DNA of 20,742 nucleotides from a virus. The DNA lies in IMG/VR virus record IMGVR_UViG_3300030107_002326, positions 802 through 21,543 of that record. One strand, 5' to 3'. Shown here piece after piece: positions 1-20,089 of the stretch. The translations under genes were made by a program, and so were the position numbers. The notes under the pieces are model-generated. The model was given only the letters and a program-made list of their open reading frames with translations. It searched no databases and had not been told where the DNA came from. Within the stretch, counting starts at the first letter, position 1. Each line of letters begins with the position of its first letter.

Positions 1-1269
1 ACATGTTTACGATTAGGTAGTAGGATTATAGGTAAATGTATGATGGGCTCGACTTCAAATGCGTTAGATAAAGGTGGAGAAAATTTTAAAAAATTATACA
101 ACTCGTCAGATGTCACTAAAAGAAATAGAAATGGTCAGACTAAGTCTGGTCTCTATTCTTTGTTTATCCCAATGGAATGGAACTACGAAGGATTTATTGA
201 TGAGTACGGAATTCCAGTATTTGATACACCTGACGTCGATGTGCTCGGCCCAGATGGCGAACTAATAGATATAGGTATAATTGAACATTGGCAGAATGAG
301 GCTGATGGTTTAAAAGGAGATCACGACGCGTTAAATGAGTTTTATAGACAATTTCCTAAAACTACTGAGCACGCGTTTAGAGATGAGGCAAAAGGAAGTA
401 TATTTAACTTAGTGAAAATATACGAGCAGATAGATTATAACGAAGAGATGACGAGAACTCTTGGTGTTACTACAGGTAATTTTCAGTGGGTCAATGGAGT
501 AAAAGACACACAAGTTATATTTTATCCAGATCCTAAAGGTAGATTTAATATCTCTTGGACACCGTCCCAACAATTACAAAATAGAGTGGTTCTTAAAAAT
601 GGTATAAAATATCCTGGTAATGAACACATGGGGGCGTTCGGTTGTGACTCTTATGATATATCAGGAACCGTAGATGGTCAAGGCTCCAAAGGGGCATTGC
701 ACGGATTGACTAGGTTTAGTATGGAAGATGCTCCAGCTAACAGTTTCTTTTTAGAGTACTTATCAAGACCACCTACGGCTGAAATATTCTTTGAAGACGT
801 TTTAATGGCATTAGTATTTTACGGAATGCCAATGTTAGCAGAGAATAACAAACCTAGATTACTTTACTATCTTCGACGTAGAGGTTATAGAGGGTTTAGT
901 ATGAATAGACCGGATAAAGTGTGGAATAAGTTATCTGTCGCAGAGAAAGAAGTTGGAGGAATTCCAAACTCTAGTGAAGATATAAAACAAGCACATGCCG
1001 CGGCAATTGAGATGTATATCCAAGATCACGTTGGTGCAAAAACTGATGGGTTTGGTGATATGTATTTTAACAGAACATTAAACGATTGGACTAGATTTGA
1101 TATAACAAAAAGAACAAAGTTTGATGCAACAATAAGTTCAGGTTTAGCTATCATGGCAAATAATAGACACTTGTATGCTCCAAATGCTAAAATAGAAAAA
1201 CCTAAAATAAATATAAATATAGCAAAATACTCTAATAAAGGTAATATGTCTAAAATAATTAAAAACTAA
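1..1269 (+). CDS. terL: Terminase large subunit, C-terminal part (5' end outside window)
   Basis: This is the motor and nuclease that cuts concatemeric phage DNA and drives it through the portal into the procapsid. The reading frame is open from base 1, so the Met codon at 40 is internal and the gene begins upstream; the Walker A and B part of the ATPase is therefore not visible. Visible parts are the end of the ATPase domain, with the MMGSTSN stretch (40-60) that fits the ATP-coupling motif, and a RuvC/RNase H-like nuclease domain. Probable metal-binding acids are the Asp of GCDSYD (codon 646), Glu/Asp in AEIFFEDV (781-798) and Asp in DGFGDMYF (1045-1059). The sequence resembles terminases of crAss-like and related marine phages. 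The portal gene follows after only two bases, which is the usual packaging pair. The assignment of individual catalytic residues is inference. Confidence 0.93.
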   Translation, partial: TCLRLGSRIIGKCMMGSTSNALDKGGENFKKLYNSSDVTKRNRNGQTKSGLYSLFIPMEWNYEGFIDEYGIPVFDTPDVDVLGPDGELIDIGIIEHWQNEADGLKGDHDALNEFYRQFPKTTEHAFRDEAKGSIFNLVKIYEQIDYNEEMTRTLGVTTGNFQWVNGVKDTQVIFYPDPKGRFNISWTPSQQLQNRVVLKNGIKYPGNEHMGAFGCDSYDISGTVDGQGSKGALHGLTRFSMEDAPANSFFLEYLSRPPTAEIFFEDVLMALVFYGMPMLAENNKPRLLYYLRRRGYRGFSMNRPDKVWNKLSVAEKEVGGIPNSSEDIKQAHAAAIEMYIQDHVGAKTDGFGDMYFNRTLNDWTRFDITKRTKFDATISSGLAIMANNRHLYAPNAKIEKPKININIAKYSNKGNMSKIIKN

Positions 1270-1271
1270 AA

Positions 1272-3689
1272 ATGGCTCATCAAAACGTAAAAAATTACTT
1301 TCCTAGCCAAACCGTTAGTGACATAGAGAAAATAAGTTACGATTATGGTTTGAAAATAGCTAAAGCGATTGAGCAGGAGTGGTTCAACGAGGATAGACAC
1401 GAAAATAGATACGCAACTAATAAAAATAATTTTCATAATTTAAGATTGTATGCTAGAGGCGAACAGTCTATTCAAAAATATAAGGATGAGTTATCAATTA
1501 ATGGTGATTTGTCCTATCTTAATTTAGATTGGAAACCAGTTCCAATTATCCCCAAATTTGTAGATATTGTAGTTAACGGTATAGCTGATAGAGCTTTTGA
1601 CATAAAAGCGTTTTCTCAAGATTCTTTCGGTGTTAGTAAACGTACGGCGTATATGGAGTCTTTACTTAACGACATGCGTAATAAAGAGTGGAATACTTTT
1701 ATAGGTCAAACATTTGGTATTGAGATGCAGCAAAACCCATCAGAGGTAATACCTAGTACGGAGGAAGAACTAGAATTACACATGCAACTTAGTTACAAAC
1801 AAGAAGTTGAGATAGCGGAAGAGCAAGCAATAAATACATTGTTAGAAGGTAGTAATTATGATTTAATAAAAAAGAGATTTTATTACGATTTAACAACTAT
1901 TGGTATTGGTGCTGTCAAAACAGGCTTTAATACATCTGAAGGTGTTGTAGTAGATTACGTCGATCCTGCAAATTTAGTATACTCTTACACAGATTCCCCT
2001 TATTTTGATGATATATATTACGTAGGTGAAGTTAAATCTATTCCAGTTAATGAATTAGCGAAACAATTTCCTCATTTAACTGAATCTGATTTACAAGATA
2101 TAATGCATAATAAATCTCATAGAAAAAATAGTAATCAAAGTAGGTATTCTACAGAGAAAGATGATAACAACAAAGTACAAGTATTGTATTTTAACTACAA
2201 AACCTATATGAATGAGGTTTATAAAGTTAAAGAGATGGCTACTGGTTATGATAAATTAATACCTAAAGATGATTCTTTTAATCCACCAGAAGGTAAAGAG
2301 GGTAATTACACTAAACTACTTAGGTCTATAGAGTGTTTATATGAAGGTGCTTTAATACTAGGTACAGATAAGTTACTTAAGTGGGAAATGTCTAAAAACA
2401 TGATGCGTCCTAAAAGTGACTTTACAAAAGTAAAAATGAATTATGCTATCGTTGCGCCCAGAATCTATAACGGTAAAATAGAATCTTTGGTTAGTAGAAT
2501 AACAGGATTTGCTGATATGATTCAATTAACTCATTTAAAGTTACAACAAGTATTATCTAAAATGGTTCCTGATGGAATATATTTAGATGTAGATGGTTTA
2601 GCGGAGGTTGATCTTGGTAATGGTACTAATTATAATCCACAAGAAGCTTTAAATATGTTCTTCCAAACTGGTAGTGTTATTGGGAGATCGTTTACACAAG
2701 ATGGTGATGGAAATCCAGGAAAAATACCTATACAAGAAATACAAAGTGGGGCGGGTAGTAATAAAATACAAACATTAATAGCGAACTACAATTATTACTT
2801 ACAAATGATCCGAGATGTAACCGGGTTAAATGAAGCTAGAGACGCTAGTACTCCAGATGAAAAAGCTTTAGTGGGTATACAAAAAATGGCAGCTGCAAAC
2901 TCTAATACAGCTACTAGACATATTTTACATTCTGGTTTGTATTTGACAGCGGAAATAGCAGAATGTTTATCACTTAGAATATCTGATATTATAGAGTACT
3001 CACCAACAAGAGACGCTTTTATTCAAGCTATAGGTGTGCATAATGTTGCTGTCTTAGAAGAAATGGGGGATTTACATTTATATGATTTTGGAATATTTAT
3101 AGATCTTCAACCCGATGACGAAGAAAAAGCATTATTAGAAAATAATATACAAGGGGCATTAGCGCAACAGAGTATAGATTTAGAAGATGCAATAGACCTT
3201 AGAGAAATTAAAAATATAAAGTTAGCTAATCAATTGCTGAAAATACGTAGAAAAAAGAAAATGGAGAAAGATCAGCAAATGGCGCAAGAAAATATGCAAG
3301 CACAAGCTGAGGCAAATGCTAGACAACAGCAAGCAGCGGCGCAAATGGAGATTGAAAAAGCTAGCGCTGTTACGCAAAACACCTTGCAATTAGAGGTTGC
3401 TAAAACACAGAATGAAATGGCGCTTTTAAAATATGAATCTCAAATAAAGAAAGATTTAATGGATCATGAGTTTAGAATAAATATGTCATTAGAACAAATG
3501 AAAACTAGCGATATTGATAAAGAAAAATACAAAGAAGATCGTAAAGATCATAGAACAAAAATTCAAGCAACTCAACAAAGTGAGTTGATTGACCAAAGAA
3601 ATACGGGTAAAGCGCCTAAAAACTTTGAGTCTGCGGGTAATGATATACTTAGCGGCGGATTTGATTTGGGTTCATTTGATCCTAGGTAA
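1272..3689 (+). CDS. Portal protein
   Basis: This 805-residue protein is the probable portal, the ring at one capsid vertex through which DNA is packaged and ejected and onto which the tail is built. Support comes from its place directly after the terminase, its size (crAss-like portals are about 800 residues), and a mixed alpha/beta body of about 640 residues. A long, charged, Gln/Ala-rich helical C-terminal segment follows (about residues 655-765), as expected for a barrel or coiled-coil extension facing the capsid interior. A Thr-Gly-Leu-Asn-Glu-Ala-Arg segment near residue 518 lies in the region that resembles other podovirus portals. The C-terminus is short and Gly/Asp/Phe-rich. The start is chosen because it is the first ATG after the terminase stop; only an A-rich stretch precedes it. 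The family call rests on sequence memory and context, not a search. Confidence 0.88.
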   Translation: MAHQNVKNYFPSQTVSDIEKISYDYGLKIAKAIEQEWFNEDRHENRYATNKNNFHNLRLYARGEQSIQKYKDELSINGDLSYLNLDWKPVPIIPKFVDIVVNGIADRAFDIKAFSQDSFGVSKRTAYMESLLNDMRNKEWNTFIGQTFGIEMQQNPSEVIPSTEEELELHMQLSYKQEVEIAEEQAINTLLEGSNYDLIKKRFYYDLTTIGIGAVKTGFNTSEGVVVDYVDPANLVYSYTDSPYFDDIYYVGEVKSIPVNELAKQFPHLTESDLQDIMHNKSHRKNSNQSRYSTEKDDNNKVQVLYFNYKTYMNEVYKVKEMATGYDKLIPKDDSFNPPEGKEGNYTKLLRSIECLYEGALILGTDKLLKWEMSKNMMRPKSDFTKVKMNYAIVAPRIYNGKIESLVSRITGFADMIQLTHLKLQQVLSKMVPDGIYLDVDGLAEVDLGNGTNYNPQEALNMFFQTGSVIGRSFTQDGDGNPGKIPIQEIQSGAGSNKIQTLIANYNYYLQMIRDVTGLNEARDASTPDEKALVGIQKMAAANSNTATRHILHSGLYLTAEIAECLSLRISDIIEYSPTRDAFIQAIGVHNVAVLEEMGDLHLYDFGIFIDLQPDDEEKALLENNIQGALAQQSIDLEDAIDLREIKNIKLANQLLKIRRKKKMEKDQQMAQENMQAQAEANARQQQAAAQMEIEKASAVTQNTLQLEVAKTQNEMALLKYESQIKKDLMDHEFRINMSLEQMKTSDIDKEKYKEDRKDHRTKIQATQQSELIDQRNTGKAPKNFESAGNDILSGGFDLGSFDPR

Positions 3690-9626: not shown

Positions 9627-12600
9627 ATGCCAGAACTTAAACGTAGCTTTCAGTCTGGGAAAATGAATAAAGACCTAGACGAAAGATTAGTCCCGAACGG
9701 TGAGTATAGGGACGCGCTAAATATAGAGATATCTACATCTGAAGAAGATGACATGGGTTCTGCTCAAACTGTTAAGGGTAATATACAATTACACAATAAA
9801 GCAAATCCAGTTCCAATGCCTGATCGTACTAAGGCGCCTACAAATAATAATTGGTCTAATACTTATAGAAATAAAACCGTAGGTAGTGTTGTTGATGATA
9901 AAACTAATTGGGGATATCGCTTGGTATCAGGTCCGTCCCCAGAAGAACACGCGGATGACAAAGAAACGACGTATATTTGGAGACCATATAATGATCAAGT
10001 AAATTATATATCAGCAGATTATATAGTTAGAAACAATGATCAAGAAGAAGAACCGGTATTAATAGATATATATTCTGTTGGTGTCGGTACATTGCAAGGT
10101 TGGACTATACCAACTACCGGAACAAGCACTATAACAGTGCCAGATGCTAGTGGGTTAAGGTTGGGTATGGAATTAGAGGTATTTGTTAACACTCCAACAG
10201 GTGTATCTAATGCTTGGATACCAGGTATATATTTACACCAAGATAAACTACCTAAGATAACTGAAATAATAGATCTAGGTGGAAGTTGGGAGATAAATTT
10301 AAATGGTGAGGTTGCACTACACAACATTTTTGTTAACCACTTAGTGTTCACCGCACCAAGAGTACTTAATTTTGAACATGATAATTTAATAACTGGTTTA
10401 AATATTATAGATGATTTTCTTTTATGGACAGATAATCATAGTGAACCTAAAAAAATACATATAGAAAAATCCGTATTAGGTTCTAGACACCCATTTACAC
10501 ACGATGGTGTTAATCCATTAGATTGGAATAAACATACTAATTTCGTTACAATGCGACCGGTAGATAGGACTCCGGCTAACACTGCTCCTAAATTTTGGCT
10601 AGGAGAAGAAGATGAGAATTTAACAATTCCGCCAGCGACTCAATCTACTGGTGGTAGGCCTATAAAAGAAAAACATATAACCGTTATAAAAGAAGCGCCT
10701 CTATTAACTCCGGTATTAGAAATGATTAAAGCTGAAGGTGATGTGAATACCGACGGTAGACTACTTAATAACGATGATAACGGTACACCATTTAATCCAT
10801 TCATGGATAGTATTACTCAAACTAGTATAAACGATGAGATTTGGATTGGTTATGGTGGACCTTCATCAGCGGGTTATTTTAACGCAAATGGTACCTTTAT
10901 AGCTGGTGGGTTACCATGTGTTGGTTGTGCTACTTGTCCACCTCCTTGGACATCATCGTGTACTATAAACTTTAGTATCGTTCCTTTTTATGAAGCTGGT
11001 GATATTGTTATATTCACAGTACCAGGTTCTTCCCCATTAAAACAAATTAGAGCTGAGGTTTTGCTAGGTCCAGATTGGAATTATGGATCTTACAAAATAA
11101 AAATATTGTCTAAATCGGGTGATATAGATAACACTGATATTAATTGGGTAAGTGAAATAGAGTTAATTGATGGCAACATGTTTGAATTTAAATTTCCTAG
11201 GTTTGCCACGAGATATAAATACGAGGATGGTGAATATTCAACTTACTCTCCCTGGACGCAAGTAGCTTTTTTACCTGAGAGAGTGCCAATGGATTATTTA
11301 ACCAAGAAAGGTTATAATCTTAATATGACTAATAATTTAAAAAAGTTAGCTATAAAAGACTTTGTCCCTCATAAAGAATTATTACCTGATGATGTAGAAG
11401 AAATAGAAATTGTTTATAAAGAATCAGATAGTTCCAACGTATATTCTGTTGTTAGAGTACCAAGAAATAGCAAGCAATGGGAGAGTTTGGATAGTAGTGG
11501 TAACACATTATCATCACAAGCGTGGCATGAAACTAGAGGATACGTAAGAATATCGTCAGAAATGATTCAAGGCACTATAGCGCCTAATCAGTTATTAAGA
11601 CATTATGACGCTGTGCCTAGAAAAGCAAAAGCCCAAGAAATAACAGGTAATAGATTGTTATATGGTAATTATTTACAAAACTATGACTTATCTAATTTAA
11701 ATAAAGTTAATTGCGGAAAAGGTAGTAATGTACCGTGCGAAGGAACGTCAAATGTAAAAACAGATATATTCTTTAGTATAACTAGTAAGTTTGTTGGAGG
11801 GTTACAACCTGAGCAAGAGAAAGTTGAAAACGCTGGTTCTTATGGTCCTGCTAAATCTATAAAATCATTAAGAACATATCAGCTTGGAGTTGTTTACCGA
11901 GATGAATATGGTAGAGAAACACCAGTTTTTTCTAATATAAAAATGTCTAAATATTTAGAAAAGAATGCCGCAGACAACGCTAATCATCTAGCCGCGGCTG
12001 TAAAAAATATTTTACCTGATTTCGTAGATTCGTTTAGATTTTTTGTAAAAGAAACTTCAAATGAATACTATAACTTACCAATGGATAGATGGTATGATGC
12101 TGAAGATGGTAATGTTTGGTTATCCTTTCCTTCTTCTGAAAGATCTAAAATATCCATAAATACCGATGAAGAGAGATTTGAAGACACTTTCATAATATTA
12201 AAGAAAGAACATGATAGTAATAATCATGTTAGTAATCGTGATGCTAGATATAAGGTTTTAGCTATAGAGAATGATGCTCCAAATTTCATTAAAACTACTA
12301 AAGATTCTTTAGGTATATTAGAAGACCAGGGAGCTGGTATATTTGAATCATCGAACAATGGTGTCGCTATTGATGGTTTTCCTACAGTAGGTAATAATTT
12401 TGTTAGAATAAAACAAGCTGATTTCGAAACCATGGGTTGGCAAAATACCTTGGTACAAACCGTTGGTCAAGGTGATATGAAATTAAGAATAGGTACTGAT
12501 GTTATAAAAAGTAGTTGGTACAAAATTATTTCAGCAAATTTTATAACCGGTTCAAACCCGTCTCAATACGAAATAAGAGTTGCAGATGACTTTGGTTCAG

Positions 12601-15600
12601 ACATGATGTTCTCAGCAAGTACTAATTTACAAGTTGATATTGTAGAAGAAAAAATAAAATATTTACCAGAGTTTGATGGTAGATTTTTTGTTAAAATATA
12701 TAGAGACCCAACATTAGAAGATATACTATTAACAACTGGCGTTCCTTCAGTAACACAATATCAAGTAACTACTGCGATGTTATGTCAAGTAATAGATCCA
12801 AATTCTGCTTGGTCTACTTATGATGGTGGTGCTTACACACCAGATGGGTGGTTTGGTTGGGGTACGGATAATATAACCTCTGTAAGTAGCACTTGGGCAC
12901 CAACAATGAATTATCAAGACGCAAATAGAACTGCGTTTACCGCTCCTCAGCCCGGTCCATACGATTGGACTATTTTGCAGGGAGGATTTACTCCCACCCC
13001 AATAATTGGACCAGATTGGGCTATATCTAATAATCAAGGTGGACAAGGAGAACAATTTTGGCAAGGTTTTGAGGGTCAAGATGCTACTTTTGGTAATCCT
13101 GGTGCGTTAGCATCAAGATGGTTTATAGATGCTAGATCAGGTCAACATCAAATGTTCCAGCCCGCTGGAGGTGGAACGGTAACTAATATGACAGGGTTCG
13201 GAGATTGGGCACCTGTAGCTGGATGGGAAATAGATAATAATGGAGATATTATAGGTACACCTATTAGTCAATCTGTAGCAAAACAAAGAGATTTTAACGC
13301 AGCGGTACCAAGCATGCCAAATAATCCAATTGTGTCTCAAGGGAATAGGACGGATATGATATCCACAACAATATTCAACATGCCATGGGTTTTTCCTTTT
13401 TCCCCTACAGAACCTGGAGAAGTTTTTAATCCAGATGCTCGTTTTAAATCGCCAAGCCAAGGTATATACACTGATCCTGTTACAAACGATCGTACTATAA
13501 TAGATATATCATGTATGGGTTTTGGTGGTCCTGAAGCAAATAGTTTGTCCTTTAGCACACAGTGGAATCAAGGAACGTGGTTACCATACGACAATGTTAA
13601 CGCACCATTTGCGTCTGCTGCGGGTTTATGGAATGTTAATGTAAATTCACCTTGGCTTGTGGATAACGCTATTCTTTACGGTAATGATATTGCTTTTATA
13701 TCAAGACTAACAACTCCCGGAACGCTGTGGAGATGGGGAGAAGATCCAGATGGTATTATATACGAAACACAAAATTCAAACACTCAAATTTCAGATTGGA
13801 TTAATTCAGGCGGTACATTAGGAGGTTGGAAAAGAGTTGGGGAAAGTAGCGTACATTTTAACACACAAACTATAGCATTATCTAATTATTCTTTTTCCGC
13901 AAACAACACGGCACAAACTGCTCTTAACACCAATAATACTTACGCGTGGACTCTTACTAGTGGAACGATAGTGCAAGTTCCAAATGATCAAAATGGAACT
14001 GGAATTTTTGATGTTCATAGTGAGTCCGCGTCAAATACAGCAAATTGGAATAGAAGTCAAAGATGGACTATTGAAGCGAGAACACAGTCAGGTGATGAAT
14101 TAGGTTCTGGTCCAGTTGGATATTTACCAACTAATGATCCTAGGTGGAGCACGTCTAATCAAAATTTTTCAAATCCAAATCAATTTGCGCCAGGTGTAAG
14201 ACATGACGGAATGGGTTGGGGACAACAAGCCGCTAACGCTCAACAAACATCGACTAATGCGACTGGTGTTGTAAATTCACCAGCAGATTATAATGCGAGT
14301 ACTGGAGTGACAAGTGGATCGTTCACATGGCAAATACTTACACCGGTAAACAATGCAAGCGCTTTTAATAGCACTGGTTCTTTCAGTAGTGGAAACCCCG
14401 CTATATGGGAAACAGAACCTAGAAATAATATTGATTTAGATATTTATTACGAAATAGGACAATCTTACGCATCAATGCTAAACGATAGAACAAATAGGTT
14501 ACATATACCTGTCGGTTCTGAGGTTAGAATATATAGACCGCCAGACTCTACCTATGTATTAAGCAATCCAGGTACACCAACAGGTTGGATAGACTGGCCT
14601 AATAATAACACAGCCTTTGTAGAAAGCTGGAACGCCTTTATACCAGGGGTAGATCCAATAGATCCAACATTTCCTAATGAAATTAGAATAACTGATAAAA
14701 ATGGTAACGTTATGGGTGGAGTGACGCCATTTGAATCTCCATTTCCTGGTGATATATTAGTATTTTATAGAGCTGATGGTAGCACAACAGAAGCGATGGT
14801 ATACGAGCATGTTATACCGGATCAATCTCCACAATTTATTACAAATAAGTTAAGTGGATTTTTCAAGTTAGATGAATCAATAGCTAATAGATATATAAGA
14901 TTGCCTTGGTTTAACTGTTATTCTTTTGGTAATGGTGTAGAATCTAATCGTATAAGAGACGACTTCAATGAAGTTATTATAGACAAAGGTCCTAAAGCGT
15001 CTACAACAATATCAAAAACATATAAAGAAGAACGAAAATCTAATAGTTTAATATTTTCTGGTATATACAACTCAAAAACAGGTATAAATAATTTAAATCA
15101 ATTTATAGAATCTGAGGGTATAACTAAAGATTTAAATCCTACTTATGGTAGTATTCAAAAGTTATATTCAAGAGATACTGATATTATAGCGTTATGTGAA
15201 GAGAAATGCTTAAGAATACTAGCTAATAAAGATGCTTTGTTTAATGCTGATGGTAACATTAATATGATAGCTACTCCTAATGTGTTAGGACAAGCGGTGG
15301 CTTACGCTGGTGATTACGGGATATCTAAAAATCCAGAATCATTTGCAGCGGCATCATTCAGAATGTATTTTACAGATAAAAGTAAAGGTACTGTATTAAG
15401 ATTATCACAAGATGGCTTAACCCCGATATCTAATGTTGGTATGAGCGACTGGTTTACTGATAATTTAAAAAACGCCTATGAAATAATAGGTAGTTTCGAC
15501 GAAAGAAAAGGTAATTACAATTTAACAGTATATGATCATAATTTAGATACCACTGCTAATGGAACTATACTTAAACTAGGTTCAAATACGGTAAGTTACA

Positions 15601-17969
15601 ACGAGAGAGTTAAGGGTTGGAGCAGTTTTAAATCCTTTGCGCAAGAACAAGGTTACAGTCTAAACAACGATTATTTTACAGCAAAACATGGTAATATTTG
15701 GAAACATCATGAAGACAGTGTATTTAGGAATAATTTTTACACTGAACAATTTGATTCATCTATAACATTGTTATTTAATGAATCACCAGGTTCTGTTAAA
15801 AGTTTTAACACTTTAAATTACGAGGGTAGTCAAGCAAGAATAACAAGAGATATAACTAGTAATCCTGATTCTATATATGTACCTGATTATTACGATAATT
15901 TTGCGTATGACGGTTGGTATGTTAGCGAAATAACAACTAATCTACAAGAAACTGATTATTTAGAGTTTAAATCTAAAGAAGATAAATGGTTTAGTCAAAT
16001 CAAAGGTGTAAGTACAGATATAAGTAATATAGATCCTAGAGAGTTTTCTTATCAAGGTATAGATGAGGCTATGGTAGATCCTTCTATACAACCTTGTATA
16101 TGGGGTTGTACTGATCCTTTAGCTGTTATCAATTATAATCCAAGCGCTACTTGTGATGATGGAAGCTGTATCTATTGTGTATACGGTTGCACTGATTCTG
16201 ACGCTTGTAACTATGATCCAAATGCTACATGTGATGATGGTAGTTGTTTACTTAATTTTGGTTGTACTGATCCAATGGCATCTAATTATGATCCAAATGC
16301 TAATTGTGATGATGGTAGTTGTATATATCCTACTCCGTGCACGGCTCCAGTGCCAGGATTTATATCGGGTAGTGGCAAAGTGGAAATGAGTTGTGGTAAG
16401 TTTATGCAAGCAGGGTTAATGTTTCATGTTGATACTTTTGCACTAGCTCCATCAACAACAAATCCAAATTACAACTACAAAATTACAGATAGCTTTGGCA
16501 ACGTTATAAGTACTGGTTCCAATATGACATCTGGGAATACTATTGTGGTACAACCCATAGTGCCTATACCTGCTAATCTACCTAATTCAACTGATTATTA
16601 TATAGAAGTTACAGATGATAATGGTTGCACATCTACAAACTTATTAACTGCTCTATCAAGTCAATTACAAGTTTACGGCTGTACAGATTCTATAGCGATA
16701 AATTATAACGCTAATGCTACGTGTGATGATGGTTCGTGTATAGTTCCAGGGAACCCTGAAATTCCTGGTTGTATGGATTCAACTGCTATTAATTATGATT
16801 GTGCAACTTCAATAAACCCCAATTCTACAACATCATGTAATGATGGTGTAACTCTTGACGACGGGACTTGTGTATATAAACAGGCACCAAAAAGTTATGG
16901 CTGTCTGGATGCTGGTGCAGCCAACTACAACGCTCAGGCAACAGCCCCTTGTGACGCTAATAATATAGGTTGTGATAACGGTGGTAATGGCACGTGTACT
17001 GGTCCAGGTATATCGGGTACGAGCGGTCAATGCTGCGCATATCCAGGTTGCACAGACCCCGTAGCAGGAAACTATGATTCAAATGCCAATGTTAATGATG
17101 GGAGTTGTATATATCCTGGTTGTACTTATGGTGGCACGTCTCTACCAACATGGACTAATATTATTGGAGATGGAGGATCTAACTCAGCTTCTACTTGGGC
17201 AAGTTTATATGGGTCAACAGATCCAGGCGCTGCTGCCTCTAACTATGATGCGTCAGCAACTGTTGACGACGGTTCTTGCGTTTGGACAACTGCTACTACT
17301 GGGTGTATGGATAATGGTAATAAATCCCAAACCTGGTTCAATAATAATCAGTATACCGGAAATTCAGGAGGCACTTATCCAAATCCTTGGGTAAGTGGAC
17401 CCCATCCAGCAAATCCAACTATAAAAGGTCCTTTGTATCCAGGTGACTACGGACATGGACAAGCAACTAACTACGATCCAAATGCTACTACAATGACAGC
17501 AGGTAGCTGTACATATAATTGTATGTGGCATATATATGAACACTGTGAAACTGGAAAAGAAATTGTTTTCAACACCTTTACTGGTGGGGGCTCAAATATT
17601 AACAAAGGGTTTAGTTGTAGTAATAATCAAAGCACCCAGAATTGGATGAATAAATCAAATGCAAATATTAGCGCAGGTATTTATCCAAATATGATCACCC
17701 CAGGAAAAGTAATTACACTAAAATTAAATAGTAATTGTGTTGACAACTCAGCACTCACATGGGCTTCTAATGCTTCAAATCCATGTTTCAAATATGTGGG
17801 ACTTCGATCTAACAAACAAGGTACTGAGGTTATACACATTAAAGGTCATCCTTGGGTGCCCTCAACAAATAGTTGTGCAGATGGAGGAGGACATTTCTCT
17901 ATAGCGGCAGGATCAAGCGCTGGATGTAGCGGATGTACTTGTGCTAACACTAACGGTCCTTGTACTTAA
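9627..17969 (+). CDS. Giant tail protein: nozzle-like body with C-terminal GCTDP repeat array
   Basis: This 2,780-residue protein is the largest in the window. It opens RSFQSGKMNKDLDERLVPNG and continues EYRDALNIEIS, the start seen in tail proteins of related marine phages and reminiscent of podovirus nozzle proteins. Residues about 1050-1690 are Trp/Asn/Gly/Pro-rich and beta-like. Residues about 1760-2150 look like propeller strands, including NCYSFGNGVESNRIRDDFN, GIYNSKTGINNLNQF and GISKNPESFAAASFRMYFTD (from residue 1898). From residue 2160 to about 2631 there are nine GCxD...NYD...DDGSC-type units, broken once by an Ig/SprB-like segment (about 2240-2345). The last 150 residues are Cys-rich and unassigned. 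The body probably forms the tail nozzle and the repeats project outward, perhaps to contact the host. Nozzle assignment is inference; the repeats are plain in the sequence. No frameshift is seen across 8.3 kb. Confidence 0.8.
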   Translation: MPELKRSFQSGKMNKDLDERLVPNGEYRDALNIEISTSEEDDMGSAQTVKGNIQLHNKANPVPMPDRTKAPTNNNWSNTYRNKTVGSVVDDKTNWGYRLVSGPSPEEHADDKETTYIWRPYNDQVNYISADYIVRNNDQEEEPVLIDIYSVGVGTLQGWTIPTTGTSTITVPDASGLRLGMELEVFVNTPTGVSNAWIPGIYLHQDKLPKITEIIDLGGSWEINLNGEVALHNIFVNHLVFTAPRVLNFEHDNLITGLNIIDDFLLWTDNHSEPKKIHIEKSVLGSRHPFTHDGVNPLDWNKHTNFVTMRPVDRTPANTAPKFWLGEEDENLTIPPATQSTGGRPIKEKHITVIKEAPLLTPVLEMIKAEGDVNTDGRLLNNDDNGTPFNPFMDSITQTSINDEIWIGYGGPSSAGYFNANGTFIAGGLPCVGCATCPPPWTSSCTINFSIVPFYEAGDIVIFTVPGSSPLKQIRAEVLLGPDWNYGSYKIKILSKSGDIDNTDINWVSEIELIDGNMFEFKFPRFATRYKYEDGEYSTYSPWTQVAFLPERVPMDYLTKKGYNLNMTNNLKKLAIKDFVPHKELLPDDVEEIEIVYKESDSSNVYSVVRVPRNSKQWESLDSSGNTLSSQAWHETRGYVRISSEMIQGTIAPNQLLRHYDAVPRKAKAQEITGNRLLYGNYLQNYDLSNLNKVNCGKGSNVPCEGTSNVKTDIFFSITSKFVGGLQPEQEKVENAGSYGPAKSIKSLRTYQLGVVYRDEYGRETPVFSNIKMSKYLEKNAADNANHLAAAVKNILPDFVDSFRFFVKETSNEYYNLPMDRWYDAEDGNVWLSFPSSERSKISINTDEERFEDTFIILKKEHDSNNHVSNRDARYKVLAIENDAPNFIKTTKDSLGILEDQGAGIFESSNNGVAIDGFPTVGNNFVRIKQADFETMGWQNTLVQTVGQGDMKLRIGTDVIKSSWYKIISANFITGSNPSQYEIRVADDFGSDMMFSASTNLQVDIVEEKIKYLPEFDGRFFVKIYRDPTLEDILLTTGVPSVTQYQVTTAMLCQVIDPNSAWSTYDGGAYTPDGWFGWGTDNITSVSSTWAPTMNYQDANRTAFTAPQPGPYDWTILQGGFTPTPIIGPDWAISNNQGGQGEQFWQGFEGQDATFGNPGALASRWFIDARSGQHQMFQPAGGGTVTNMTGFGDWAPVAGWEIDNNGDIIGTPISQSVAKQRDFNAAVPSMPNNPIVSQGNRTDMISTTIFNMPWVFPFSPTEPGEVFNPDARFKSPSQGIYTDPVTNDRTIIDISCMGFGGPEANSLSFSTQWNQGTWLPYDNVNAPFASAAGLWNVNVNSPWLVDNAILYGNDIAFISRLTTPGTLWRWGEDPDGIIYETQNSNTQISDWINSGGTLGGWKRVGESSVHFNTQTIALSNYSFSANNTAQTALNTNNTYAWTLTSGTIVQVPNDQNGTGIFDVHSESASNTANWNRSQRWTIEARTQSGDELGSGPVGYLPTNDPRWSTSNQNFSNPNQFAPGVRHDGMGWGQQAANAQQTSTNATGVVNSPADYNASTGVTSGSFTWQILTPVNNASAFNSTGSFSSGNPAIWETEPRNNIDLDIYYEIGQSYASMLNDRTNRLHIPVGSEVRIYRPPDSTYVLSNPGTPTGWIDWPNNNTAFVESWNAFIPGVDPIDPTFPNEIRITDKNGNVMGGVTPFESPFPGDILVFYRADGSTTEAMVYEHVIPDQSPQFITNKLSGFFKLDESIANRYIRLPWFNCYSFGNGVESNRIRDDFNEVIIDKGPKASTTISKTYKEERKSNSLIFSGIYNSKTGINNLNQFIESEGITKDLNPTYGSIQKLYSRDTDIIALCEEKCLRILANKDALFNADGNINMIATPNVLGQAVAYAGDYGISKNPESFAAASFRMYFTDKSKGTVLRLSQDGLTPISNVGMSDWFTDNLKNAYEIIGSFDERKGNYNLTVYDHNLDTTANGTILKLGSNTVSYNERVKGWSSFKSFAQEQGYSLNNDYFTAKHGNIWKHHEDSVFRNNFYTEQFDSSITLLFNESPGSVKSFNTLNYEGSQARITRDITSNPDSIYVPDYYDNFAYDGWYVSEITTNLQETDYLEFKSKEDKWFSQIKGVSTDISNIDPREFSYQGIDEAMVDPSIQPCIWGCTDPLAVINYNPSATCDDGSCIYCVYGCTDSDACNYDPNATCDDGSCLLNFGCTDPMASNYDPNANCDDGSCIYPTPCTAPVPGFISGSGKVEMSCGKFMQAGLMFHVDTFALAPSTTNPNYNYKITDSFGNVISTGSNMTSGNTIVVQPIVPIPANLPNSTDYYIEVTDDNGCTSTNLLTALSSQLQVYGCTDSIAINYNANATCDDGSCIVPGNPEIPGCMDSTAINYDCATSINPNSTTSCNDGVTLDDGTCVYKQAPKSYGCLDAGAANYNAQATAPCDANNIGCDNGGNGTCTGPGISGTSGQCCAYPGCTDPVAGNYDSNANVNDGSCIYPGCTYGGTSLPTWTNIIGDGGSNSASTWASLYGSTDPGAAASNYDASATVDDGSCVWTTATTGCMDNGNKSQTWFNNNQYTGNSGGTYPNPWVSGPHPANPTIKGPLYPGDYGHGQATNYDPNATTMTAGSCTYNCMWHIYEHCETGKEIVFNTFTGGGSNINKGFSCSNNQSTQNWMNKSNANISAGIYPNMITPGKVITLKLNSNCVDNSALTWASNASNPCFKYVGLRSNKQGTEVIHIKGHPWVPSTNSCADGGGHFSIAAGSSAGCSGCTCANTNGPCT
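16104..17519 (+). repeat. Nine-unit cysteine-rich GCTDP/DDGSC repeat array inside the giant tail gene
   Basis: Units begin at bases 16104, 16185, 16260, 16677, 16767, 16899, 17046, 17118 and 17301. The core unit is about 25 residues: GCTDP-x-A-x-NYDPNAT-x-DDGSC. Units 1-3 are tandem; units 2 and 3 share a 33-base stretch (16215-16247 and 16290-16322) with two mismatches, exactly 75 bases apart. Units 5, 6, 8 and 9 are stretched by inserts of differing length, and the last has lost the DDGSC form. Such repeats are common in secreted proteins of marine Bacteroidota. The acidic loops might bind calcium and the paired Cys probably form disulphides; both are inference. Confidence 0.9.
16343..16670 (+). 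other. Ig/SprB-like domain inside the repeat array (part of the giant tail protein)
   Basis: Between repeat units 3 and 4 lie about 110 residues without the repeat pattern. They end with a segment YYIEVTDDNGCTST (the Asn-Gly-Cys at residues 2332-2334), preceded by NYKITDSFGNVISTGSN. This strand pattern is like the SprB/PKD-type repeats of flavobacterial adhesins, in which the end reads as a 'Y-x-V-x-V-T-D-x-N-G-C' motif. It is a domain within the coding region, not a separate gene. The family call is by motif only. Confidence 0.55.
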
Positions 17970-17985
17970 TAATAAATAACGAACT

Positions 17986-19716
17986 ATGATAGAACAATTT
18001 TACCCTTGGTATTGGAAACGTTATGATATGGCCACTGATGATAGTGATGCCGGTGATTATACTGAAGATCAATACAATGAAGCAGCTGATGCAGGTTTTA
18101 GTAGTGTAGAAGAATATATTGCGTATTTAGCAGATCTTGATACGCTTACAGAAGGCCAAGTAGATTCTACACCACCTCCACCACCTCCACCTCCCCCACC
18201 TCCACCTCCACCAGTTGTTGATGAATTGTCCGCAGATGAACCTGGTATTATACTGGATAAATTCGCAACAAAAGATATTAGTATTAGAGTTATAAGAAGT
18301 TTAGAAATATCGAATTCAAAACCCATTAACGCTGAGGGTGGTACTCGTACTATAACTATAAAAGGAGATCATAACGCGAATTTTAGTTTAACTATATTAG
18401 ATAGTTCTGGGAGAAATATATTAGATACTTATTTAACTAGTATAATTATACCTAAATCTGGAACGTATGTTTTAAAGCATAATTTTCCTAAATATGAATC
18501 TAATGATTTTACAAGAGTAGATAATACCGAAACTTACGAGATAAAAATTACACCAAGATCTTTTACTAGGTTTGATAAAGATTTAGTATCTTCTATTGAG
18601 ATAAACCAATATCCAAATCCAACGGTTAATATAACAGCAACATCATCACACACTATAAGTGGTAGCGATGGTAGTTTATTAGGTAAAGCAATGAGGATAG
18701 CGAATACAATACCAAAAAGTTTTTCAACAACATCATCATCTACTAATATCAAAAAGTTTGGAGAAATAACACTTCAAAAAACAATTGCACCAAGTTCTGG
18801 TGTATTATACATATCTAGAAGACCTATATTTTCAGACATAATTAAAAGTACTGATATAAAAAGAAGAGTGTTAGTTAAAAAACGCGCTAGTGAAAAAGAG
18901 TTAAAGCTATCCATGCCTTCTAGTGATGTGGCATCTCAATTTTCAAAAGTTGTCAAAAAGGGTATGTCATTTAAAGGTTCGTATTCAGTTACTAAAATGT
19001 TTAAACGAAATATAATTGAAAAGGATGGTTGGAGTAATAAAATAAGGATAGATGATATATTAGAATTACTACCAGGTATGATTATAACAGGAGATAATAT
19101 AAAAGGTCATGTGAGTATTAGATCTATTGACAACGATACTGATATAACTATATCATCAAATCAAAAAATAACTAAGTTTGATTCATTAGTTTTTACACAA
19201 AATATAACTAATGTTGTAGATACTGTTATTAATGACAACACAATAACAGTAGACTATATAAATGCCATACCTCGAAACATGGAATTAACATTCTCAAATG
19301 ACTCTACTTCTGTTCGGGGTGTAACAACTATGAAAGGTAGCGGTAGTAGTTTGTTAACTTTAGATTATACTTATAATGTTATAAACTTTGGAAGACAAGA
19401 TGTTACTTTTACAATGGAAACAGATAATTTTGTAACCACTACACCTAACGCATACGCACAAGATGTTGTAACTACTAAAAATACAGCTGTTACAATAGAT
19501 ACTGGGGTGCATGATAAAGATGTTAACGCTGACACTAAAACGTTAACTATAGTTTCTGGGCCATATCATGGTAAACTAACAGCTGTTGGTGGAGCGGCAC
19601 AATCAAAAATATATACACCAAACACGGGTTTTACAGGTGAAGATAAATTTACTTTCAAAATGAATGATGGTACTACAGATAGCGAGATAAAAACAATTAC
19701 AATAAAGACAACATAA
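17986..19716 (+). CDS. Probable virion fibre or decoration protein with polyproline hinge and Ig/cadherin-like end
   Basis: This 576-residue protein has three parts. Residues 1-61 are acidic, with a helical piece YNEAADAGFSSVEEYIAYL. Residues 63-76 are 14 consecutive prolines, a stiff linker. Residues about 80-576 are mostly beta strands. Residues 95-195 are Ig-like, and the last 90 residues (about 487-575, including YTPNTGFTGEDKFTFKMNDG) match the pattern of bacterial cadherin-like/Ig domains of large surface proteins. This suggests a rod that projects from the virion, attached by its N-terminus. A second in-frame ATG at 18028 (MATDDSDAG) could be the true start. I kept the first because it lies 16 bases after the previous stop. 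It sits behind the giant tail gene and one base ahead of the next gene. No enzyme motif is seen, and the fibre role is inference. Confidence 0.6.
   Translation: MIEQFYPWYWKRYDMATDDSDAGDYTEDQYNEAADAGFSSVEEYIAYLADLDTLTEGQVDSTPPPPPPPPPPPPPPVVDELSADEPGIILDKFATKDISIRVIRSLEISNSKPINAEGGTRTITIKGDHNANFSLTILDSSGRNILDTYLTSIIIPKSGTYVLKHNFPKYESNDFTRVDNTETYEIKITPRSFTRFDKDLVSSIEINQYPNPTVNITATSSHTISGSDGSLLGKAMRIANTIPKSFSTTSSSTNIKKFGEITLQKTIAPSSGVLYISRRPIFSDIIKSTDIKRRVLVKKRASEKELKLSMPSSDVASQFSKVVKKGMSFKGSYSVTKMFKRNIIEKDGWSNKIRIDDILELLPGMIITGDNIKGHVSIRSIDNDTDITISSNQKITKFDSLVFTQNITNVVDTVINDNTITVDYINAIPRNMELTFSNDSTSVRGVTTMKGSGSSLLTLDYTYNVINFGRQDVTFTMETDNFVTTTPNAYAQDVVTTKNTAVTIDTGVHDKDVNADTKTLTIVSGPYHGKLTAVGGAAQSKIYTPNTGFTGEDKFTFKMNDGTTDSEIKTITIKTT
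18172..18213 (+). repeat. Run of 14 proline codons (polyproline tract)
   Basis: Fourteen proline codons in a row, a mixture of CCA and CCT with one CCC, sit in the fibre gene (residues 63-76). The codons are mixed rather than one repeated triplet, but the DNA is still a C-rich, nearly pyrimidine/CCA pattern that could change length by slippage. Ribosomes stall on such runs unless elongation factor P acts. Confidence 0.97.
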
Positions 19717-19717
19717 T

Positions 19718-20089
19718 ATGCCGGCAATAACAATATCATTTTCTAATCAGCTAAATACATCGGTACAAGTGGGTGACGATGCTTATTATGCTAACACTAA
19801 CGCTGTTGGTGTTCATCAGCAACAAGATTTATCTAATGTTATTTATTTAGGACCGATAACAAGTATAATACAAGGAAACCCACCAGCTACACCAGCACAG
19901 ATAACTTGTAATATGCCCATCGGTACAGTTCCACCTATTGCGGGTTCTTTTATTATGTTCAGCAAGGATAACAAAGCTAATATGAGTAGTATACTAGGTT
20001 ATTATGCAGAAGTTACATTTAGAAATAATTCTAAAACAGAGGCTGAATTATTTAGTGTAGGGACTGAGGTTTTTGAAAGTAGTAAATAA
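19718..20089 (+). CDS. Small conserved-looking virion-module protein of unknown function
   Basis: This 123-residue protein starts one base after the stop of the fibre-like gene, so the pair is probably translated together. It is beta-rich, with an opening ITISFSNQLNTSVQVGDDAY. The C-terminal half contains GSFIMFSKDNKANMSSILGY and TFRNNSKTEAELFSVGTEVF, ending ESSK. I recall this ending from the same place in related uncultured marine phages. There is one Cys, and no signal peptide or membrane segment. It may be a fibre partner, cap or tail-attachment protein. The function is not known, and the call as a real gene is firm. Confidence 0.75.
   Translation: MPAITISFSNQLNTSVQVGDDAYYANTNAVGVHQQQDLSNVIYLGPITSIIQGNPPATPAQITCNMPIGTVPPIAGSFIMFSKDNKANMSSILGYYAEVTFRNNSKTEAELFSVGTEVFESSK

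Follow-up and report, generated by a model that had tools for sequence, protein, structure and literature searches.

A crassvirus-type muzzle gene split at an array of host-type cysteine-containing units, a probable part of an exchangeable adhesin arm

Background

At the tail end of the crassvirus crAss001 sits a hexameric muzzle, whose ring-joining domain and propeller resemble those of the nozzle of phage T7 (PMC10172136). The T7 nozzle, gp12, carries its fibre dock as an additional domain on the outside, between the propeller end and the platform attached to the adaptor ring (PMC6702177). Two extracellular modules are relevant as well: BACON, which in cells is a linker between anchor and binding domains (PMC6949934), and a segment of perforin-2 described as a truncated epidermal growth factor (EGF)-like domain at the MACPF/P2 hinge (PMC6989145). 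Here we consider positions 802 to 21,543 of the 35,038-bp virus record IMGVR_UViG_3300030107_002326 (IMG/VR); this stretch of 20,742 nucleotides is referred to as the window, and coordinates are given in it unless stated otherwise. Its open reading frame (ORF) 9627-17969 (+) encodes an uninterrupted protein of 2780 amino acids with an array of short cysteine-containing units in its C-terminal part.

Results

The 2780-amino-acid protein is a crassvirus-type muzzle, the gatekeeper of the tail tip. It is approximately 33% identical to the muzzles of cultured marine phages (tblastn: Cellulophaga phage phi38:1, Flavobacterium elemo phages and others) and matches phrog_14478 of PHROG (E 3.4e-119); its alignment with relatives (A1) also backs the assignment of the muzzle core. 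A profile of the C-terminal half built from this protein and its relatives (A5) finds the crAss001 muzzle gp44 in PDB (7qok_A, 1124-1291, E 6.4e-9), and a model of the same half from the relative L290 has gp44 as its top Foldseek match (7qol_P, E 5e-6; VIA-align Z 8.3). The order of the window genes matches that in phi38:1 and the elemo phages, with the muzzle placed after the portal, major capsid and connector genes.

9627..16016 (+): muzzle core, amino acids 1-2130: N-terminal segment, propeller blades, variable central (crass-domain-like) region, propeller and MUZ_C
15726..16004 (+): crAss_MUZ_C domain (PF25729), amino acids 2034-2126; Pfam scan, E 1.9e-7, 31.9 bits against a cut-off of 27

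Amino acids ~1075-1585 of the muzzle (window 12849-14381) have no blastp match in the relative L283, though the flanking parts match; this is a second variable region, probably the crass domain. The L283 muzzle was at first read as 93% identical and lacking the array; a short local alignment was to blame, the real identity is 53% over 340 amino acids, and the comparison is not used.

The gene of the muzzle is in two parts: a gene of its own encodes the conserved C-terminal domain, and the array and one more gene lie in between.

17986..19716 (+): intervening gene, 576 amino acids, with a proline tract and a C-terminal Big_9/cadherin-like domain (Big_9 E 3.5e-10); part of the inserted cassette
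19718..20089 (+): detached terminal domain of the muzzle, 123 amino acids; 43 bits, E 1.9e-15 against a profile of intact cultured-phage muzzles

The profile was built solely from the last 115 amino acids of those intact muzzles. The muzzles of cultured relatives, e.g., phi38:1, run approximately 110 amino acids past MUZ_C, and this part is absent from that place in the 2780-amino-acid protein; phrog_18548 matches both this protein and the 123-amino-acid one, at complementary model positions. The latter is 42% identical to its counterpart in L283. When the 2780-amino-acid protein was used as a single query against viral contigs, nothing was found; the set of relatives consists of 80 IMG/VR loci kept from an alignment-based search. 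The terminal domain is a separate gene in 58 of the 80 and is fused in 5. Because 58 relatives share the split, we count it as variation within the muzzle family; a terminal domain on the same chain is usual in cultured relatives and is not family-defining in Pfam. In the relatives L269 (3459-10272) and L294 (3294-12493), the muzzle is also broken before MUZ_C (model ~1103-1107), so that one muzzle would come from three genes.

The array occupies amino acids 2160-2628. Its unit is defined as GC-x-D-x2-A-x-N-Y/F-x3-A-x2-D-D-G-S/T-C, with two fixed cysteines. Eight units were found by a motif scan (amino acids 2141-2660), and a degenerate ninth was recognised by eye. Five are canonical (21-22 amino acids) and either fit the definition completely or deviate from it by one inserted or one D/N-changed residue; the other four, i.e., three found by the scan and the degenerate ninth, are loop-expanded. 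Fold confidence is given below as the block-mean predicted local distance difference test (pLDDT) of AlphaFold2, which lies at 85-95 over the first three units.

16104..16169 (+): unit 1, GCTDPLAVINYNPSATCDDGSC, amino acids 2160-2181; motif scan; predicted fold, pLDDT 90-95
16185..16247 (+): unit 2, GCTDSDACNYDPNATCDDGSC, amino acids 2187-2207; motif scan and DNA pattern; predicted fold, pLDDT 85-95
16260..16322 (+): unit 3, GCTDPMASNYDPNANCDDGSC, amino acids 2212-2232; motif scan and DNA pattern; predicted fold, pLDDT ~85-91
16335..16661 (+): putative beta-sandwich/Ig-like domain between units 3 and 4, amino acids ~2237-2345 (~110 amino acids); sub-threshold Ig_7 (CHU_C-associated), E 0.002
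16677..16739 (+): unit 4, GCTDSIAINYNANATCDDGSC, amino acids 2351-2371; motif scan and DNA pattern
16767..16871 (+): unit 5, loop 2 expanded, 35 amino acids (2381-2415); motif scan
16899..16997 (+): unit 6, loop 2 expanded, 33 amino acids (2425-2457); motif scan
17046..17108 (+): unit 7, GCTDPVAGNYDSNANVNDGSC, amino acids 2474-2494; motif scan and DNA pattern
17118..17279 (+): unit 8, loop 1 expanded, 54 amino acids (2498-2551); motif scan
17301..17510 (+): unit 9, degenerate, loop 1 expanded, 70 amino acids (2559-2628); recognised by its GCMD start and ATNYDPNAT...GSC end, missed by the scan
17520..17966 (+): cysteine-containing C-terminal ~149 amino acids beyond the array; no family in the Pfam scan of amino acids 2131-2780

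The protein has six matches to GCxD..A.NY and six to DDGS/TC, compared with at most one each in 5000 shuffles. A 63-nucleotide degenerate DNA pattern of the canonical unit has four exact matches in the 35,038-bp record, every one inside the array; its reversed control has none in the same record. An earlier note on this DNA, made from the sequence alone, had reported nine repeats at 16104-17519 (amino acids 2160-2631). By the shuffles and the DNA pattern they are real and beyond chance, and their position after the propeller agrees with the domain layout of the muzzle core. The description requires two amendments: the array is interrupted by the ~110-amino-acid domain and four of its units are expanded; and, while the protein is indeed a giant phage tail protein, the array is not its end, as about 150 amino acids follow and the muzzle functionally continues in 19718-20089.

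The model of the domain between units 3 and 4 is of low confidence, with a best VIA-align Z of about 5 to beta-sandwiches. Foldseek and VIA-align of the array model left the units unmatched (the VIA-align rows cover model residues 91-205, i.e., this beta domain), as did the Pfam and NCBIfam scans. In the Pfam scan of the 2780-amino-acid protein, BACON (PF13004) has no match at E up to 1, and neither Por_Secre_tail nor CHU_C, sorting domains of the type IX secretion system (T9SS), matches the protein. The unit has two fixed cysteines and lacks the six-cysteine pattern of EGF, and there is no EGF match in Pfam. A search of the open-access full texts in PMC for the motif strings returned nothing relevant. 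Unit positions C8 and C16 co-occur above chance (odds ratio 4.1, p 9e-8, for units that are not independent by ancestry), which may suggest a second cysteine pair.

The content of the insertion site differs widely between relatives. For the 58 split loci, in which both ends are present, the tail after MUZ_C is 2-1476 amino acids long, and the gap to the terminal-domain gene is 2-3283 nucleotides. The tails are unrelated in 215 of 249 muzzle pairs with 40-50% core identity. Big_9 (in 11 of the 44 intervening genes scanned, the 576-amino-acid one of the window among them), cadherin-like, fn3 and, in one case, Hint domains were identified in the tails or the intervening genes. The single tail with the Hint/PT-HINT/intein-splicing-type domain (1 of 39, alignment A3) could carry an intein or a self-processing module.

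Units occur in 15 of the 80 relatives found by homology (12 of the 58 split and none of the 5 fused loci; the remainder are on cut contigs). In two of the 15, L327 and L329, the unit is inside the muzzle at amino acid 1432, ahead of the propeller end, and not in the tail. On the muzzle-core tree, the presence of units needs at least 14 label changes, at least 6 of them forced by supported branches. In a motif-only scan of viral contigs, at least 120 stretches hold the unit; among the matches listed, 16 unit carriers are strong muzzle homologues (E <1e-50) and 2 more are weaker, and nearly all units of these muzzle carriers are C-terminal to MUZ_C. Among the other viral carriers are members of virion structural, tail-fibre and baseplate-wedge families. 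The cyanophages S-CAM3, S-RIM44 and S-CAM4 have the unit in annotated virion structural proteins as well, and its occurrence in phage structural proteins is therefore not unique to the phage of the window. Several IMG/VR viral contigs (L005 and others in alignment A7) encode unit proteins with CHU_C or Por_Secre_tail domains; these are either bacterial contigs misfiled as viral or phage-encoded exported proteins, and the sorting domains suggest that some are bacterial.

A genome scan finds the unit mainly in Flavobacteriales and other Bacteroidota, then in Marinimicrobia, a few archaea and one Vogelbacteria; the records titled Euryarchaeota, Nanoarchaeota and Vogelbacteria (L163, L169, L179, L186 and L192) are possibly binning errors. 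Of a draw of 60 genomes from a single class, the one to which Brumimicrobium belongs, 14 have it, and one Flavobacteriales genome (G003, locus L212) has several clusters of the canonical unit with 237 exact copies in total. Many cellular carriers start with a signal-like segment. In 15 of the 105 with a complete N-terminus, the unit lies 4-13 amino acids past the lipobox cysteine, and its frequent position directly after a lipoprotein anchor suggests a spacer. A profile of three-unit stretches finds perforin-2 in PDB (hmmsearch, E 0.0037), where the match, residues 332-353 of 6U2J, lies in the linker between MACPF and P2, described in the structure papers as a truncated or postulated EGF-like linker. 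The cellular and perforin-2 contexts point to the canonical unit as a spacer at least as much as to a binding element.

The earlier note assigned the unit mainly to surface or secreted proteins of marine Bacteroidota and proposed that the phage took up, or shares, a host module. The unit is indeed common in secreted and anchored proteins of Bacteroidota, but the range must be widened to the other cellular groups above, perforin-2 and the viral contigs. A shared module is the best reading, and the tree does not prove uptake. The mean identity of random unit pairs is 13.8/21 within muzzles and 13.3/21 between muzzle and cell. On the unit tree, which the note had proposed as a check, the phage units do not form one deep clade: the phage/cell labels need 158 changes, compared with 234 +/- 9 when shuffled by locus, and at least 7 are forced by supported branches. 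Thus, phage and cell units are clustered beyond chance yet intermixed, and few branches are resolved. The four ungapped canonical units of the 2780-amino-acid protein have differing nearest neighbours, both cellular and viral. We rejected the tree as a proof of uptake from hosts, since the labels intermix and 21 columns cannot resolve donors; with so little resolution it permits repeated exchange without proving uptake. Judged from the unit sequences, uptake from hosts is plausible, and repeated exchange between phages and cells is likely but unproven. Composition was also rejected as a sign of recent transfer: the GC content of the array is 0.41 versus 0.35, but GC at third codon positions and codon usage fit the phage, so the difference follows the amino-acid content.

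The genes of the window are, in order, terminase, portal, an ORF, the major structural protein, an ORF, two structural proteins, the 2780-, 576- and 123-amino-acid proteins, and onward. Further downstream, at record positions 23637-33632 (L003 6637-16632), there is an ORF of 3331 amino acids, where relatives place a giant last structural gene.

Discussion

We believe, with a probability of roughly 60%, that the array belongs to an adhesin arm of the crassvirus muzzle that faces outward and can be exchanged. Since related phages carry many different add-ons at the insertion site, the arm probably is a part that can be swapped and that serves to touch host cells. In this reading, the muzzle reading frame was opened between MUZ_C and the terminal domain, so that the latter is now a separate downstream gene, and the gap was filled with the C-terminal extension (nine units, the putative beta-sandwich domain and the cysteine-containing end) and the gene that contains Big_9. 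Judged by homology to crAss001 and T7, six copies of the arm would exit laterally at the ring-joining (upper, outer) side, near the position of the T7 fibre dock. The canonical units may serve as short disulfide-pinned spacers or a stalk, like those that cells set between domains and beside lipid anchors. For the surfaces that would contact glycans or proteins of the host surface, the best candidates are likely the loop-expanded units, together with the beta domains. In favour of such a role of the loops, among the matches listed, units of at least 27 amino acids make up 16% in the motif-found muzzle carriers, compared with 5% in the remaining viral carriers and 2.5% in the cellular ones (permutation p 0.005). 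The analysis shows the muzzle assignment, the split, the conservation of the detached domain, the hypervariability of the tails and the cellular contexts of the unit; we infer the adhesion, as well as the disulfide pairing and the copy number and direction of the arm.

Several results weigh against this proposal. The half-model of the L290 muzzle is weak (mean pLDDT 51.6), and the exit point of the arm therefore rests on homology; the beta-sandwich assignment is likewise of low confidence. None of the 88 muzzle-matching records of cultured phages is among the array-matching records, and the closest cultured relatives, phi38:1 and the elemo phages, have muzzles free of the unit. The few muzzle pairs above ~55% core identity mostly share the tail, so tails are not exchanged quickly, and a recombination breakpoint at high identity was not found. 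The codon usage of the array matches that of the muzzle core (r 0.963), hence there is no sign of recent uptake.

It is tempting to go further and regard the muzzle of this clade as a swap site, where the conserved ring-joining end was severed to become a gene in its own right, surface arms built from anchor-spacer units and adhesin domains of the hosts can be exchanged without breaking the tail, and the gatekeeper is a determinant of the host range; we offer this tentatively and consider it doubtful on the whole.

The units themselves might be receptor- or glycan-binding elements that gain avidity by repetition, as proposed for the BACON arrays of crAssphage. With tandem copies on a tip protein that forms a hexamer, avidity would be high, and the BACON repeats, as a precedent, suggest that surface binding is enhanced (PMC6949934). 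The enrichment of loop-expanded units in muzzle arrays, given above, would agree with this as well. Nevertheless, the canonical units are near-invariant at the motif positions across phages and cells, some cellular units directly follow a lipid anchor, the perforin-2 match is in a linker, and no carbohydrate-binding family matches the units in the Pfam and NCBIfam scans; we think such a role unlikely.

A purely structural role, in which the extension acts as a brace between the muzzle and either the tail rings or the detached terminal domain, or shields the tip, without contacting the host, appears improbable. Homology does place the site beside the region that joins the rings, and disulfides do stabilise the tail of crAss001 (PMC10172136); but a brace should be conserved, whereas in most relatives the tails are lacking, short or unrelated, while the terminal domain is retained.

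We give somewhat less credence still to a passenger, i.e., a permissive C-terminal site that gathers modules of host secreted proteins and expresses them without benefit. The wide variation of the site, including the one tail with a Hint domain, would agree with it; however, the frame is open over 650 amino acids, and a short tail together with a short gap occurs in none of the 58 split loci.

Finally, the joining of a bacterial secreted-protein gene to a phage gene in assembly, suggested by the metagenomic source and the lack of a cultured close relative, can hardly be taken seriously, as unit-bearing muzzles come from many independent contigs and two different searches, the terminal-domain gene is downstream in most contigs that reach far enough, and the codon usage is uniform.

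If the array does belong to an adhesin arm, its position is of interest. The muzzle is thought to trigger ejection in crassviruses, and a split hypervariable muzzle with host-type modules is a concrete candidate for the contact point; this suggests that the gatekeeper, and not just the tail fibres, can be a seat of host recognition. The split of the muzzle, its hypervariable inserted tails, and a small extracellular unit that has no Pfam or NCBIfam model and is common to Bacteroidota, Marinimicrobia, phages and the animal perforin-2 are new.

Comparison with known systems

The region of the propeller and MUZ_C in crAss001 gp44 (PDB 7QOK/7QOL; PF25729, PF25731) is homologous to that of the 2780-amino-acid protein by profile and fold search. 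Gp44 is a single chain of 1371 amino acids without the array, whereas the phage of the window has a separate gene for the terminal domain, with an extension of ~650 amino acids and another gene in between. The T7 fibre dock (PMC6702177) shares the placement of an extra outer domain between the propeller end and the adaptor-ring platform, but it is unrelated in sequence and is a jelly-roll that holds the tail fibre. Perforin-2 (MPEG1; PDB 6U2J, 6SB3) shares one unit by sequence with the array, in its truncated EGF-like linker; there it is a lone unit at the hinge of an animal immune protein, with no array. By analogy, the BACON arrays of crAssphage can be taken as the closest precedent for the muzzle arm: BACON repeats on tail-associated proteins of crAss-like phages (PMC6949934) are likewise tandem copies of a host extracellular module. 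They differ in the unit, as that of the window has 21-26 amino acids and no BACON match, and in the location, since the repeats of the window are within the muzzle itself, at the site where it is split.

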